From an uncultured Holophagaceae bacterium (GTDB taxonomy: Bacteria > Acidobacteriota > Holophagae > Holophagales > Holophagaceae): 64,000 bases of DNA. Shown piece by piece: positions 11,960 through 25,260 of this stretch. How positions within the stretch are numbered: the stretch's first letter is position 1; each line of letters begins with the position of its first letter. The position numbers and the translations under genes were made by a program. The stretch covers positions 124,001 to 188,000 of the forward strand of contig CAIWKE010000027.1 in NCBI GenBank assembly GCA_903913215.1. Reading direction: 5' to 3'. The notes beneath the pieces were generated by a model that saw only the letters and a list, made by a program, of their open reading frames with translations, was not told where the DNA came from and did no database searches.

Positions 11960-12847
11960 CTAGATCAGGCCGAACCAGTCCTGGTTGTGGCTCTGGAAGG
12001 CGCTGAGCAGGGTGGCTACCAGGTCCGGGGGCAGGGGCCCCTTCTGGACCCAGGCCAGGTTCTCCAGGAAGTGGGCCAGCTTGTTCGTGCCCACGATGCT
12101 GGAGGACACACCGGGGCAGTGGGCCGTGAAGCGCAGGCCCACCTCGTTCCAACTCAGGCCCTCGGGAGCTTCGCCCAAATCCATGGCCTGCCAGCGGTCC
12201 CAGTAGTGGCCCTCGGCGAAGGCCTCGGGGCGTTGGGTTTGCTGCCACACGGCGCCCGCCAGGGGGCGCTTGGCGATGACGCCGAGACCGCGGGCTCTCA
12301 AGGCGGCCAGACGCTCGGGGAGGTTCCCCTGGTCGCAGAGGCTGAGGGAGGTCTGCACCGCGTCGAAGCGCCCCGACTGCATCGCGAAGTCCAGCTCGGC
12401 GTTCTCGCCGGAGTAGGCCACCACCCGCAGCTTGCCCGCCGCGGCGCAGTCCTCCAGGGCCCGGGTGACCTCGCCCCGCTCCAGGGTGGCCAGGGGGCAG
12501 GAGTGCAGGTGCACGATGTCCAGGTGCTCGCAGCGCATGCGGGTGAGGGCGGCGTCCACCCCCGCGAGGATGCAGCCGTAGGTCCAGTCCGCGTGCCCGG
12601 GTATGCCGTAGCCCACCTTGGTGGAGAGCAGGAAGTCCTGGCGCCGGTGGGCCAGGTGGCGGCCGATGCGCGCTTCGGAATGGCCGTAGCCCCGGGCCGT
12701 GTCGATGAGGTTCACGCCCGCGTCCAGCACCGCGTTGAGCAGGTGGCCCGCCTCGGCCTCGCTGACGCGATCGTCGTTGAGGTGCATGGCGCCAAAGCCC
12801 AGGGGGGTGACGTGGAGGCCGGTGAGGCCGAAAGCTCGAGTCTGCAT
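11960..12847 (-). CDS. Aldo/keto reductase
   Basis: 295-residue NADPH-dependent TIM barrel. The tetrad is visible as Asp49 and Tyr54 (DTARGYGHSE), Lys77 (STKVGYG) and His113 or His115 (VHLHSC). GTNKLAHFLEN near the C-terminus corresponds to the coenzyme-binding loop. It directly abuts the preceding GNAT gene with no gap. Substrate unknown; general carbonyl detoxification is plausible. Confidence 0.92.
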   Translation of the reverse strand: MQTRAFGLTGLHVTPLGFGAMHLNDDRVSEAEAGHLLNAVLDAGVNLIDTARGYGHSEARIGRHLAHRRQDFLLSTKVGYGIPGHADWTYGCILAGVDAALTRMRCEHLDIVHLHSCPLATLERGEVTRALEDCAAAGKLRVVAYSGENAELDFAMQSGRFDAVQTSLSLCDQGNLPERLAALRARGLGVIAKRPLAGAVWQQTQRPEAFAEGHYWDRWQAMDLGEAPEGLSWNEVGLRFTAHCPGVSSSIVGTNKLAHFLENLAWVQKGPLPPDLVATLLSAFQSHNQDWFGLI

Positions 12848-20957: not shown

Positions 20958-21572
20958 TCAGGGACGGGCGGGCGCAGTCGCGCACTGTCGGCAGATGCAG
21001 ATCTTGTTTCGATACTCGGGGGGAACCCGGGCCAGGGCGGTGGGGTTGAAGTTGATGGCGTTGCACCAGCATTTCGAAGGGTCGCCGCCCTCCTGGGCGC
21101 CCAGGCAGTCGTTGGGTTGGCCACAGAGGGGGCAGATGAACTTCGAGACCGGCGTGGCTCGGACCTCCTCCACCAGACGATCCAGGTTCTGCTCGTTGGC
21201 ACCCTCCAGGAAGGTGCGCATGTTCTCGGAGAATTCCTGGTTTTCGAAGACTCCGACCCAGGTGACGAGGGTGCCGTCTCCGCTTGGCTCCAGGGAGAGG
21301 CTCAGCTCGAAGCGCGGCAGGTTCACGTGCTGCAGGCGAACCCGCGAAGGGGGGAGGATCTCCAGGAACTCGGCCTGGTTCGGATAGTCGGTCCCATCCG
21401 GGCCGTGCATGGTGAAGCGCCAAGTCCCGCCCGGCTGGAACTCAAAGGTCTCGAAGGTGTTCGTGAATCCGGCGGGCCCCCACCAGCGGGCCAGCCGCAT
21501 CGGGTCCTCGAAGGCGGCAAACACGGCCTCGGGATTGGCTGGAATGACTCGGGAGTGCTGGAAGACTGACAT
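20958..21572 (-). CDS. AHSA1/SRPBCC domain fused to Cys-rich CWC zinc domain
   Basis: 204 residues. Residues about 1-140 are an AHSA1-type SRPBCC domain (LARWWGPAGFTNTFETFEF, RFTMHGPDG). Residues about 147-197 are a CWC-type zinc domain with Cys at 147, 150, 156, 168, 170, 192, 194 and 197 (ICPLCGQPNDC, CWC, ICICRQC). The ATG at 21572 is supported by GGAG. CWC proteins are usually short and stand alone, so the fusion is unusual. It suggests a metal-linked role for the ligand-binding domain; function unknown. Confidence 0.85.
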   Translation of the reverse strand: MSVFQHSRVIPANPEAVFAAFEDPMRLARWWGPAGFTNTFETFEFQPGGTWRFTMHGPDGTDYPNQAEFLEILPPSRVRLQHVNLPRFELSLSLEPSGDGTLVTWVGVFENQEFSENMRTFLEGANEQNLDRLVEEVRATPVSKFICPLCGQPNDCLGAQEGGDPSKCWCNAINFNPTALARVPPEYRNKICICRQCATAPARP

Positions 21573-21594
21573 CTTAGCTCCGGGAATGCATGCT

Positions 21595-21972
21595 TCAGGC
21601 CTTGGAGGAGTCCGGTGGCTGCCAGAGCTCGATGCGGTTTCCCTCTGGATCCATGACCCAACCGAACTTCCCGAAATCCGATTCATCAACCTTGGCATCC
21701 ACCTCGCAGCCTTCAGAACGCAGGGACTTGAGGAGCGAGTGGAGATCCTCGACCACGTAATTCACCATGAAAGGCGATATACTGGGAGCGAAGGCATCGG
21801 AGGAAGCCGGGGAGATACTCCAGACCGTGACCCCGTCGGGTCGGTCGCAGGGAAACGCCGTCCCACCCCAGTCTTGAACGTCGATGCCCAGGTGGGCCTT
21901 GTACCAGGCGCGGAGCGCCTCTGGATCCCGGGCCTTGAAGAAGATTCCGCCAATGCCGACGACTCTTTTCAT
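21595..21972 (-). CDS. VOC-family protein
   Basis: 125 residues. GIGGIFFKARDPEALRAWYKAHLG starts the fold and GWVMDPEGNRIELWQPP ends it, with the conserved metal-binding Glu. GAGG lies eight bases before the ATG. It is the last ordinary chromosomal gene before the lower-G+C cassette region. Function unknown. Confidence 0.88.
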   Translation of the reverse strand: MKRVVGIGGIFFKARDPEALRAWYKAHLGIDVQDWGGTAFPCDRPDGVTVWSISPASSDAFAPSISPFMVNYVVEDLHSLLKSLRSEGCEVDAKVDESDFGKFGWVMDPEGNRIELWQPPDSSKA

Positions 21973-22051
21973 GGGAGCACCTCGTTCGATGGAATCTTGA
22001 GAATAGCCCTCGGCAGGCGGGCCCGAGAACGAGGTTAACCGGAACCCACGA

Positions 22052-22112
22052 TTGCATCGAACGAAGCCTCGCCGCAACTGGCCGACAAGGATGGGGAAGC
22101 GGAGGGTTAGGC
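22052..22112 (-). repeat. Degenerate attC-like site closing the cassette cluster
   Basis: In the minus orientation it opens with GCCTAAC (22106-22112), then CCTCCGC, which pairs with GCGGCGAGG (22067-22075), and continues CTTCGTTC as in the better site at 22953-23049. The second core box appears mutated (GATGCA instead of GTTAGG). It is 24 bases beyond the stop of the first cassette ORF. Confidence 0.4.
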
Positions 22113-22135
22113 CACGCTGGCTACCAGGGAATGGG

Positions 22136-22471
22136 TTAATCGGAACCTCCGACCCCGATGCCCAAGTCCCACGTGGTATCACACCGGAGGCAGAGGGCGG
22201 AATATGCGGAGGCACCCCTGGTTGTTTCCATGGGTTGATTACATTGGGGGCATTTAACATGGAATAATTGATAGAAAAGATAAACCAGGGTTCCAATCAA
22301 TGCCGATGCAAAACAGAAGGCCATGGCAATGCCGAAGCCCTTCGATACCAGATGCGATGGGATCAGAGCAGCAAGGAAAAGGAGAGCAATGACAATCCAT
22401 GCCCGAACGAAGGTTCGCTGGAACCACTTGGCAAAAGAAGGGTGAGGTAAATGTTTCAAGTCCGACTCCAA
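22136..22471 (-). CDS. Small membrane protein with zinc ribbon (cassette ORF)
   Basis: 111 residues from a TTG at 22471; no ATG is available in frame. Two membrane segments lie near residues 22-41 and 46-69, followed by a CxxC...CxxC zinc-ribbon-like tail (VKCPQCNQPM, LCLRCDTTW). Base composition is lower in G+C than neighbours. It is bounded by attC-like sites at 22052-22112 and 22505-22621, as expected for an integron cassette ORF. No family recognised; start uncertain. Confidence 0.55.
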   Translation of the reverse strand: MESDLKHLPHPSFAKWFQRTFVRAWIVIALLFLAALIPSHLVSKGFGIAMAFCFASALIGTLVYLFYQLFHVKCPQCNQPMETTRGASAYSALCLRCDTTWDLGIGVGGSD

Positions 22472-22504
22472 CTGACCTAGGTTGGGTGTAAATGATGGAG
22501 CCCT

Positions 22505-22621
22505 GCCTAACGAATGAGGCTAGCCAAACCCACCTGCACCGAGGCGCTAATCGGAGACGAGGAACCAGGGACAAGAAAGGGAACGGAAAACAGCGCAGGT
22601 GGGATCCGAGTTGAGTTAGGA
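22505..22621 (-). repeat. attC-like imperfect palindrome
   Basis: Outer boxes GCCTAAC (22505-22511) and GTTAGGA (22615-22621) face each other, and inner arms CCCACCTGC (22529-22537) and GCAGGTGGG (22595-22603) are perfectly complementary. The spacers are unequal, as in integron attC sites. It lies right after the stop of the 22643-22945 ORF in the minus orientation, where an attC belongs. Confidence 0.6.
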
Positions 22622-22642
22622 GTTTGGCGCTGGTAGGGGCAT

Positions 22643-22945
22643 TTAGTTGAGAGCATCAAGCAAGCCCCAACCGAAAGAGATGAACCCGACCCCAGCAATG
22701 AACAGGATGTTGAGCCAAAACGTAAAAGGGCTATCCGAGCGTTCGACCCTCGAAAAGCGGCCACGTACATAACCGATTTGAACGCAACAAAGGGCGAGCC
22801 CCCAAAAGATTGGGGCAAGAAGCATCAATTCCATCGGCGACATGGGACCCCGCTTCAGGCCATGTCTCTGGATGGCGCTATATGTGATGAAGAATAGACC
22901 ATAGGCAACTCCGAGGATGCGCCAAGTTCTTAAGGTCAGTGGCAT
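22643..22945 (-). CDS. Small three-TM membrane protein (cassette ORF)
   Basis: 100 residues with membrane segments near 8-24, 37-60 and 78-96. No family recognised. Its ATG is only eight bases inside the GTTAGG boundary of the preceding attC-like site, and a GGGG tract next to that boundary can serve as ribosome-binding site. This tight placement is characteristic of integron cassettes. Lower G+C than the surroundings. Confidence 0.65.
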   Translation of the reverse strand: MPLTLRTWRILGVAYGLFFITYSAIQRHGLKRGPMSPMELMLLAPIFWGLALCCVQIGYVRGRFSRVERSDSPFTFWLNILFIAGVGFISFGWGLLDALN

Positions 22946-22952
22946 GTGAGCC

Positions 22953-23049
22953 CCTAACGGACGAAGCGAGCCAGCCCAACCGTGGGCCTGGGAAAGCGGA
23001 ATGAATGGCTAGTGGTCACGGTTGGGTCCGGGTTAAGCGAAGGGTTAGG
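22953..23049 (-). repeat. attC-like imperfect palindrome
   Basis: Core boxes CCTAAC (22953-22958) and GTTAGG (23044-23049); inner perfect 10-base arms CCCAACCGTG (22975-22984) and CACGGTTGGG (23017-23026). The segment GGGTTAAGCGAAGGGTTAGG next to one core resembles the classical L-box/R-box layout of attC. The stop codon of the 23045-23506 ORF lies within the core box, as often happens in cassettes. Clearest of the series. Confidence 0.65.
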
Positions 23050-23506
23050 TGCCGTAAGAACAATTATGAGAGCTGCTCGTACATTTGGCAGACACGATTT
23101 TTGGATGAATCCTTGCTGTGCGTTTGCCAAGTTTCGTATAGGCTTTCACCTCTAAATCTAGCCGACATGTCCAGGGGCCCTGGCACTCTTTCTGTGTAGG
23201 GGTGAACCTAAGACTCCTAACAAATGACCCAAGCTTGTTCCAGGTTCCAATGAATCCATCAATTCGTTTGGACTCAACGACCTGACCTGAAGAGTCGATT
23301 GCCAACTCTGTGGTGATAATGGTGTCTGGCAAGGCTTGTAGCTCAGACATGGCTGGGAATTTTGGTACTATTTTGTTATCAATTATTATTGGACCTGCTT
23401 CTGGTCTCTTTGATTCAGTTCCGGAAGGATTGGATTGGGCAAATCCAAGGGCTGACCCGATTAGTAGAATTAATGAGAATTTGAATTTGCTGCATGCTGG
23501 GTGCAG
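23045..23506 (-). CDS. Exported protein of unknown function, apparent CTG start (cassette ORF)
   Basis: 153 codons. The frame encodes a signal peptide (KFKFSLILLIGSALGFAQ) followed by a mature part with ITTELAIDSSGQVVESKRIDGF and LRFTPTQKECQGPWTC, faintly like a TonB C-terminal fold. No ATG, GTG or TTG precedes the signal peptide in frame. A CTG at 23506 has AGGAG six bases upstream, provided by the attC boundary. An internal ATG at 23350 would lose the signal peptide. A one-base frameshift from an out-of-frame ATG is the alternative. The stop lies in the attC core. Confidence 0.55.
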   Translation of the reverse strand: MHPACSKFKFSLILLIGSALGFAQSNPSGTESKRPEAGPIIIDNKIVPKFPAMSELQALPDTIITTELAIDSSGQVVESKRIDGFIGTWNKLGSFVRSLRFTPTQKECQGPWTCRLDLEVKAYTKLGKRTARIHPKIVSAKCTSSSHNCSYGT

Positions 23507-23514
23507 TGTTGGCT

Positions 23515-23613
23515 CCTAACTTTGAATTATACGAACCACCGAGCCCACCTGAAGAATCGTGTAAGCATGATACCGGCCACAGCAAAGCATGGATAAATCG
23601 TAAGCGAACCTGG
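23515..23613 (-). repeat. Partial attC-like (or attI-like) site at the head of the cassette cluster
   Basis: The core CCTAAC (23515-23520) and the following arm containing GAGCCCACCTG match one side of the other two attC-like sites. The opposite side is not clear; TTCGCTTACG on the minus strand near 23605 may be a decayed partner box. It could instead be a recombination point without a full attC. Confidence 0.35.
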
Positions 23614-23783
23614 ATTTCGGGAATTGTGGAGGACCTAGAATTTCCAGATGGATCTGCCTGCACTGCCAAGCCGACTGCTGGATTGACTGCGGGTGAAGCC
23701 TAAGGCCTCCGGGCTTCGCCATGGGTAAAGTGCCCCTCCCTGATTACTGGTATTGAGCGGCCAGGGTGGCCAAAGAAATGACA
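23614..23783. other. Intergenic DNA upstream of the zincin gene
   Basis: With the flanking partial attC and repeat, this forms a 380-base stretch with no gene I can support. Short open frames on both strands lack ribosome-binding sites and familiar sequence. The higher G+C from about 23690 onward suggests the end of the cassette region. Confidence 0.4.
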
Positions 23784-23810
23784 ACCACCGATGAACACCG
23801 ATGAAAAATT
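23784..23810. repeat. Tandem CACCGATGAA units
   Basis: Two copies of CACCGATGAA, 11 bases apart, lie 80 bases upstream of the zincin gene. Similar CACCGATGAA-type short arrays occur in the intergenic DNA of many bacteria, from general knowledge. Role unknown. Confidence 0.45.
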
Positions 23811-23887
23811 GAAGATCCACTGGAGGAAGCAGATCCTGGGTCGAGGAAGGTTCACAGGACTGCGCTCAAGGGGAGTAACCTCGTCCC

Positions 23888-24259
23888 ATGCACCTATCGG
23901 AGCGGCCTTTCCGCGCACTGGTGGCCGAGGCGCTGGCGCAGGTGCCAGCGGAGTTCAGGCCCTACCTGGAAGGCGTGGCAGTGGTGCTGGAGGACTGGGC
24001 GCCGGACGCGCTGCTGGAGGAACTGGAGGTGCCCGAGGACGAGACCATCTACGGCCTGTACTCAGGCCGGGCCCTCACAGAGGGGCGCCCCGAATCCGGT
24101 GAGCTGCCGCCCCGCATCACGCTCTACCGGGGCCCCCTGCTGGCGGCCTGTCACAACGAGGCCGAGCTGCGCGACGAGATCACCACCACCGTCCTGCATG
24201 AGATCGCCCACCACTTCGGCCTCGACGAAGCGCGGCTTCGAGAGCTCGGCTGGGGCTGA
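23888..24259 (+). CDS. Metallopeptidase-family (zincin) protein
   Basis: 123 residues. The C-terminal LHEIAHHFGLDEARLRELGW carries HExxH (His104, Glu105, His108) and a following Asp, as in the small zincin family related to DUF1025. The N-terminal half has YLEGVAVVLEDW and ETIYGLYSG. Complete and of typical length; intracellular. Protease activity has not been shown for the family as far as I recall. Confidence 0.9.
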   Translation: MHLSERPFRALVAEALAQVPAEFRPYLEGVAVVLEDWAPDALLEELEVPEDETIYGLYSGRALTEGRPESGELPPRITLYRGPLLAACHNEAELRDEITTTVLHEIAHHFGLDEARLRELGWG

Positions 24260-24288
24260 GCCGGTCGCTGTGGAGCCTGGAAGGGGCT

Positions 24289-24396
24289 CACCACGGAGAG
24301 CGCCGAGAACGCGGAGAACAGACAAACCATTCAACCGCAGAGGGCGCAAAGTGCGCAGGGAAAGACTAGGCTTCCTCTGCGTCCTCTGCGGTTAAA
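24289..24396. repeat. Modular 9-mer repeat element
   Basis: A first block of GCGGAGAAC-like units at 24289-24319 is followed by CAACCGCAGAGGGCGCAAAG and a facing arm CCTCTGCGTCCTCTGCGG at 24374-24391. It lies between convergent genes just after the zincin stop, like the element at 6279-6362. Confidence 0.7.
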
Positions 24397-24462
24397 TCAC
24401 CACTGGGTGCTGCCTCCTCGCAGCCGTAGGGATCACGCCTGCGGACGGATCGAAGCCCCGGG

Positions 24463-25260
24463 TTAAAGCGTCTTCAGGATGGCTTCGCGCTTCTCCTGGT
24501 ATTCGGCCTCGCTGAGCACCTTCTCGTCGCGCATGCGCTGCAGGGCCTTGAGGCGCTGGGTCTGGGTCTCGTAGAAGGCGGCGTCCTTGACGGCCGGGGC
24601 TGCCTCAGCGGCCTTGGGCGCGGGGGCCGGGGCTGGTGCCTGGGCGGGCGTGGTTAGGACCGGGGCGGCCTCGGCGGGTGCTGCCTCCAGCGGCAGGCTC
24701 AGCCAGTCAGCGCGCAGGGCCTTGGTGCCGCCCTGGAGGGCGATCATGGAGGCCTGGGTGCGGGAGCCGTACTCAAACTTGGGCAGGATGTTCTCGGCCT
24801 GGTAGCGGCCCATGAAGGAGAGGCGGGCATCGTGGACCAGGAGGTTCAGGGTGTTGCCCTGCACGAAGAGCCGCGCCGTGAGGGCCAGGGGCTCCTCCAT
24901 GAAGAGGCCGCCGCGCTTGCTGGTGCTCAGCAGGATGAGGTCCTCGCTGGGCTGGCTCAGGGCGAAGGCTTCCACCAGGGCCTTGCCGAGGCCCGTCAGC
25001 TCGTCCTTGGAGAAGAGAGGCACCTGCTCGTTATCGACCTGGACCTGCACTGGGGCCAGGGCCGCACGAAGCTGGGCCGCCGTGAGCTGGGCGGGGTGCG
25101 TGTTGGCGGGGGCGCCCTTTTCGGCGGGCACGCGCTTCACCCAGGTGAAGCTGGACAGCTGCCACTGGGTGCGCGTGTTATCTGCGGCCCGGGCGGCGGT
25201 CGCCGTGCCGAGGCCGAGGAGTAGGGCCACCAGACTGAGCTGCCATCCTGTGTGTCGCAT
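24463..25260 (-). CDS. Exported SHOCT-domain protein
   Basis: 265 residues. A signal peptide covers residues 1-25 (cleavage near ARAAD). The middle domain (about 27-190) is unassigned, then comes an Ala/Pro linker and a C-terminal SHOCT helix pair (RLKALQRMRDEKVLSEAEYQEKREAIL). It is likely periplasmic or outer-membrane-associated. It shares the SHOCT tail with the BamE-like lipoprotein at 17275-17775. Function unknown. Confidence 0.75.
   Translation of the reverse strand: MRHTGWQLSLVALLLGLGTATAARAADNTRTQWQLSSFTWVKRVPAEKGAPANTHPAQLTAAQLRAALAPVQVQVDNEQVPLFSKDELTGLGKALVEAFALSQPSEDLILLSTSKRGGLFMEEPLALTARLFVQGNTLNLLVHDARLSFMGRYQAENILPKFEYGSRTQASMIALQGGTKALRADWLSLPLEAAPAEAAPVLTTPAQAPAPAPAPKAAEAAPAVKDAAFYETQTQRLKALQRMRDEKVLSEAEYQEKREAILKTL

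Follow-up and report, generated by a model that had tools for sequence, protein, structure and literature searches.

The cassette cluster described here consists of integron cassettes with attC sites, has no working integrase nearby and lies in a genome of the genus Geothrix. Its history can be stated with considerable assurance: a sedentary chromosomal integron at the Geothrix home locus, flanked by an AHSA1-like gene and a zincin gene, very probably lost its integrase in place, because the cluster ends in a putative attI and the first codons of intI, and because the integron of relatives has the same zincin flank and, in two genomes, the same AHSA1-like flank. The window, meaning the whole stretch analyzed, covers 64,000 nucleotides (G000:C27:124001-188000) of G000, a 3.9-Mb draft in 41 contigs that is 95% complete. 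A preliminary description had proposed an integron gene-cassette cluster without a nearby integrase. Structure and homology of the attC sites support this proposal, as does the lack of an intact intI; the account of cassettes and attC sites was sound, but the attI and intI codons, a fourth cassette and the home locus had been overlooked. The elements of the locus are as follows.

20958-21583, minus strand: left flank, AHSA1-like gene with a Cys-rich CWC domain, start codon at 21572 (AHSA1 6.7e-20, Cys_rich_CWC 2.9e-11)
21594-22025, minus strand: cassette 4, glyoxalase, farthest from attI, coding part 21598-21972 (Pfam Glyoxalase_6 7.7e-06)
22020-22112, minus strand: attC site C, decayed, with R'' GCCTAAC (22106-22112) intact and R' (22020-22026) mutated, from alignment to the attC of a relative (G009)
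22136-22471, minus strand: ORF of cassette 3 (ORF3), 111 aa, with hydrophobic stretches and a CxxC pair by eye
22505-22628, minus strand: attC site A, end of cassette 2 (covariance model R1, 86.4 bits, E 7.9e-18; nhmmer with a profile from one relative's array, E 9e-21)
22643-22945, minus strand: ORF of cassette 2 (ORF2), 100 aa, mostly hydrophobic by eye, no family
22952-23050, minus strand: attC site B, end of cassette 1 (R1, 54.7 bits, E 1.5e-10), bottom strand folding with the R boxes paired
23045-23488, minus strand: ORF of cassette 1 (ORF1), secreted-looking protein of ~147 aa with a signal-peptide-like start read by eye
23514-23647, plus strand: putative attI region, crossover point GTTAGGA at 23514-23520 (minus strand)
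23648-23694, plus strand: intI 5' remnant, MDLPALPSRLLD-stop-LR from the ATG at 23648, from alignment to a relic on contig C3 of the same genome
23712-23887, plus strand: deletion scar and remaining spacer without intI homology, the 20 bases directly upstream of the zincin gene being common to relatives
23888-24259, plus strand: right flank, zincin-like metalloprotease (Pfam Zincin_1 2.1e-32)

With two scored attC sites and no integrase beyond the 5' remnant of intI, the cluster falls within the definition of a CALIN. Its short ORFs run in one direction, one per attC, with contents that vary among relatives, as expected of a cassette array. What it retains of a complete integron is an apparent attI beside intI; of a functional intI there are only about 15 codons with a stop at the locus, and the draft genome gives no full match. 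The four cassettes (21594-23519) have G+C contents of 0.48, 0.54, 0.53 and 0.60, compared with 0.665 for the whole window, which bears out the distinctly lower G+C reported before.

attC sites and cassette genes

A model of the attC sites was derived from relatives. De novo self-comparison of the array side of intI in one Geothrix genome (G008) yielded 22 repeats of ~124 nt in 15.6 kb, each starting with a form of RYYYAAC and ending with a form of GTTRRRY, with a variable center and three unpaired bases that all lie on the 5' arm (L'' side); one of these 22 seed sites was trimmed too long (142 nt). A profile built from them recovered 131 near-full-length sites in the loci of 19 relatives, 15 of which had any site; the sites of the window and of the C3 relic were excluded from this set. 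The covariance model R1 was constructed from 17 of the 131 sites, chosen to be less than ~80% alike, and has 124 positions. It is our own model, trained on sites of the same family, and is distinct from IntegronFinder's standard attC model; an attC model for Acidobacteria is mentioned in the available text of PMC8352920.

In the 17-site alignment, 92.7% of cells pair according to the expected attC structure, as against 17-49% in slid controls. Ten of 26 pairs changed on both sides, a level reached by one of 500 shuffles; further pair types did not exceed shuffles (113/500), and no pair of the R-box helix changed on both sides. When R1 was run on the 64-kb window with filters off, the attC covariance-model check suggested earlier, here with a relatives-only model, found sites A and B at the scores listed above, and the next best match reached 12.1 bits (E 0.96). 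Both sites fit the attC structure of R''/R' and L''/L' pairing with unpaired bases on one arm. Sites A and B are therefore attC sites, on the strength of their structure and of their homology to arrays that adjoin intact intI genes in genomes of the same genus. An Rfam search of 21000-25000 returned four chance matches and nothing attC-like.

The two clear palindromes had been described with the arms that we find, although their limits shift. The left one (22505-22621) starts where stated; its end moves to 22628 in an end-to-end alignment with the 124-position model, and the CCTAAC that had been taken as its boundary falls in the spacer. R' of site A is intact (GTTAGGC), and R'' (GCCAAAC, 22622-22628) carries one change. 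We considered that site A might be seven bases short between R'' and L'' and rejected this, as the end-to-end alignment gives a changed R'' and a normal length. The right palindrome (22953-23049) was correct in kind and is extended to 22952-23050; the R boxes of this site B pair except for their outermost bases. The cassette-like placement of the ORFs also holds, in that the ORF1 stop lies within R'' (ACCTAAC) and six bases separate the R' box from the ORF2 ATG. Folding of the bottom strand as DNA, also proposed earlier, gave a moderate excess over shuffled sequences: 10 (A) and 9 (B) of 200 shuffles folded as well (z -1.8 and -1.6), and two sites from relatives gave z -2.3 and -4.1. In site B the R boxes are paired; in the best fold of site A they do not pair with each other.

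Site C has decayed further. It had been thought that each ORF is followed by a palindrome bounded by CCTAAC and GTTAGG, which is true of two sites; the third is no longer a palindrome. R1 gives no match to it at E up to 10, and its predicted fold is not more stable than those of shuffled sequences (z +0.95). Its R'' and spacer (22098-22112, GCCTAACCCTCCGCT) are identical to the commonest first 15-mer of the relatives' sites (31/131). Half-site profiles place it fourth in the window for the 5' half (E 0.19) and second for the 3' half (E 0.87), each weak singly. Recognition of site C is based on the alignment to the attC and glyoxalase cassette of G009, to which the half-site profiles add weakly.

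The three short minus-strand ORFs of the preliminary description are present at 22136-22471, 22643-22945 and 23045-23350. The frame of ORF1, called at 23045-23350, continues upstream without a stop as far as 23488 or beyond, for 156 aa in all. It has no in-frame ATG at its start, an out-of-frame ATG lying just before it (23485-23520), and ORF1 may therefore be damaged or use another start. One relative was found for it in 76 genomes, at 25% identity (E 2.6e-5; G008:C2:378867-379073), and this relative lies inside a cassette array. A Huwentoxin-like match (E 0.036 and 0.064, below cut-off, over 17 residues) was rejected as chance, and structure prediction from the single sequence gave a mean pLDDT of 43.5. 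For ORF2, the sole Pfam match has E 3.3, and NCBIfam and PADLOC gave none at E up to 1. ORF3 has weak zinc-ribbon matches below cut-off and one weak match in a plasmid collection; with the window DNA, that collection gave a single, irrelevant match. The glyoxalase is the one cassette ORF to which these family searches gave a name; the preliminary description had recognized no family in the three short ORFs. The PADLOC defense families gave no match to the cassette genes at E up to 1.

As had been proposed, we searched relatives for the cassettes: at E up to 1e-3, neither ORF2 nor ORF3 was matched in any of the 76, and ORF1 was matched weakly in one. The objection that the same block might be conserved in place does not apply, because ORF2 and ORF3 lack such matches; relatives share the place and the platform, not the contents. 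The glyoxalase is more widespread, with matches at E up to 1e-3 in 38 of 76 relatives. In G009 (contig 16), a homologue with 82% protein identity has an intact attC site on either side (1872-1995 and 2441-2564 of L082), and the window aligns to G009 from inside the upstream attC through the glyoxalase to its stop codon. The glyoxalase in the window is thus the fourth cassette, with its own attC missing. Among the four glyoxalase loci scanned with R1, an attC lies ~50 bases upstream in G009 and G037 and ~590 bases upstream in G014, and none was found in G012.

The integrase remnant and its home locus

The attI core CCTAACTTTGAATT is common to the window and to the attI regions of relatives. Positions 23515-23694 align with an attI/intI relic on another contig of the same genome (73% identity, E 9.9e-20). 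This C3 relic (G000:C3:403799-406331; L067:7799-10331) comprises an attI, ~57 intI residues with two TGA and two attC sites, and matches intI at E 5e-10 to 1.8e-16. The remnant in the window comprises approximately the first 15 codons of intI with one stop, and a looser alignment reaches 23711; beyond about this position, tblastn finds no intI homology. Because the remnant is short and, read alone, gives no significant match to intI, its identification relies on the C3 relic as a bridge. In 23400-23900 there is no match to a sigma-70-like promoter (Pc), with 0.3 expected by chance. Two terminator-like stems lie on the minus strand at 23785-23837 (0.4 expected) and overlap an intergenic repeat, accgatgaacaccgatgaa, further copies of which lie close to genes in relatives, and an inverted repeat with 23-nt arms, 87% complementary and 23 nt apart, is found at 24329-24397.

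The whole-genome search for intI that had been recommended found no intact copy in the 3.9-Mb draft. Besides the C3 relic, a relative's IntI gives partial matches only, the best of which covers residues 200-302 at 40% within a frame of 320 aa. We infer that these are Xer-like, as related tyrosine recombinases would give; the intI family profile produces below-cut-off matches in 14 of 14 control genomes. Since G000 is a draft, an intact intI could possibly lie in an assembly gap. With 150 of 2700 candidates scored, R1 gives at least nine matches in G000 at E up to 10, distributed over C27, C3, C26, C9 and C11, and at least eight pass E 1e-3. The further attC-like sites outside C27 and C3 lie at G000:C26:6217-7982, C9:31292-31386 and C11:33422-33519.

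In relatives, the genes on the right-hand side of the window lie near intI. Of the 77 genomes of the family, 46 have an intI that passes the family cut-off, as do 29 of the 47 of the same genus (counted by handle). In 22 of these 29, by hand count, the zincin gene closely follows intI, in the same orientation and no more than 1.8 kb away. On the other side, the cassette array ends at the AHSA1-like gene in two genomes, G022 and G018, and the distance from flank to flank is 7.2 kb in the former and 15.5 kb in the latter, compared with 2.3 kb in the window. In six genomes of the genus with a strong match (G020, G021, G029, G036, G041 and G042), the AHSA1-like gene lies beside neither intI nor the zincin gene; in G020 it is on the same contig as an attC array.

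These features suggest a sequence of events. The ancestral locus would have carried attI, intI on the plus strand and a cassette array on the minus strand, and the integrase would have taken up cassettes at attI, with the newest cassette adjoining it. A deletion starting around codon 15-20 of intI and reaching beyond the gene would then have left only attI and the first codons. Without an integrase, the array could neither gain nor shuffle cassettes and presumably shrank after the loss; four cassettes remain, and their genes would now be ordinary chromosomal genes, if they are expressed at all. Decay of the attC sites appears to be under way, with site C lacking its R' crossover box, site A changed in R'', site B nearly intact and the last cassette without an attC.

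An alternative origin is off-target capture, in which an integrase encoded elsewhere inserted the cassettes at a spot that was never a platform. Such insertion would be in keeping with the attC sites on four other contigs of G000 (C3, C26, C9 and C11) and with relatives that have intI and distant arrays. In G011, for example, a long attC array lies at ~1.53-1.55 Mb of C1, far from the genome's intI at 0.58 Mb, and clusters away from intI in this genus therefore also arise otherwise. At the present locus, however, the attI and intI codons at the end of the array contradict this explanation, and the zincin gene also flanks the home integron of 22 relatives; we consider off-target capture very improbable here. 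We attach equally little weight to an assembly artifact, in which a complete integron was collapsed or misjoined through similar attC repeats. The genome is a draft of 41 contigs, and attC repeats complicate assembly according to the available text of PMC9024848, but the sites in the window differ from one another, the short array lies inside a contig with unique flanks, decay is visible within the sites and in the intI codons, and the same locus has undergone a similar loss in G036, a relative whose genome is a single contig. Finally, although palindromes alone can be REP or MITE-like repeats beside unrelated small genes, we give that reading next to no credence, as the sites are found at the 3' ends of ORFs, are interspersed with differing genes in relatives, form arrays next to intI and leave bases of one arm unpaired in the manner of attC.

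Integrase loss at the same locus in other Geothrix genomes

In addition to the window locus, we selected 15 further zincin loci of the same genus that have no intI beside the gene. Eleven of them contain neither attC nor intI, three of the 11 ending close by at contig ends. The other four retain parts of the integron. In the single-contig genome G036, the zincin locus has three attC sites and intI residues ~2-44; another broken intI lies at 774 kb in this genome. In G038:C59 (L204 ~12000-12110), the first intI codons are fused in frame to the last, and five attC matches are kept alongside. In G006:C3, the last 21 intI codons lie by the zincin gene (L202:3229-3291) and model residues 1-299 are found 28 kb away (G006:C3:557586-558482); this intI has apparently been split near residue 295-299, as by rearrangement. 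The locus in G019 has one attC.

Judged by their endpoints, which differ, the intI losses at the locus may have been separate events. Within the genus, genomes without an intI over the cut-off (n=8) have a median of 5.5 attC sites versus 65.5 in those with one (n=18; one-sided Mann-Whitney p 5e-4); this comparison covers genomes at least 95% complete, with at most 75 candidates scored per genome, and its p value ignores kinship. We think it likely, with less assurance than for the window itself, that one Geothrix integron locus lost its integrase repeatedly and independently, with differing endpoints, in G000, G036, G038 and G006, while cassettes and attC sites stayed. If this is true, the genus constitutes a natural time series in which the formation of CALIN, and the rate at which attC sites and cassettes decay without an integrase, can be followed. 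It has intact, truncated and empty loci on which the pace of decay can be measured.

Comparison with known systems

One large survey gives similar numbers of orphan clusters (2961) and complete integrons (2760), and CALIN have been proposed to be degraded integrons, as stated in the available text of PMC9024848. Three origins of CALIN, namely off-target insertion, integrase loss and rearrangement, are proposed in the accessible part of PMC8618304. In the parts of the sources available to us, about a third of intI genes are given as pseudogenes (PMC2426708), and the cost of the integrase and its inactivation are treated in PMC3510236. A search by title and beginning of abstract, with subscription journals mostly outside its coverage, found no literature on Geothrix or Holophaga integrons. 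Against this background, a decayed sedentary chromosomal integron is a known kind of element, a CALIN formed by integrase loss, and the present locus is a clear example in which that loss is recorded with unusual directness. How an orphan gene-cassette cluster can arise is visible here in the locus itself.

Like the CALIN defined for IntegronFinder (available text of PMC9024848), the cluster combines two or more attC sites and their cassettes with the lack of an integrase gene; it differs in that attI and the opening codons of intI persist at the home locus, and its origin by integrase loss is therefore directly readable. One CALIN can thus be attributed to integrase loss on the basis of its sequence together with matched loci in relatives. 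The integrons at the ilvD locus of Xanthomonas, as described in the accessible part of PMC12444791, resemble the present case in their conserved home locus, in the cassettes they keep and in the frequent inactivation of the integrase by stops, frameshifts and deletions. They belong to another phylum and have a different locus and different cassettes, in a comparison of locus, cassettes and integrase state. Another close counterpart is the sedentary chromosomal integron of Geothrix, for example that of G008, with which the window shares the downstream zincin gene, the family of ~124-nt attC sites and the attI core. In contrast to that integron, the one in the window has a truncated integrase, four cassettes rather than tens, and attC sites that are decaying.
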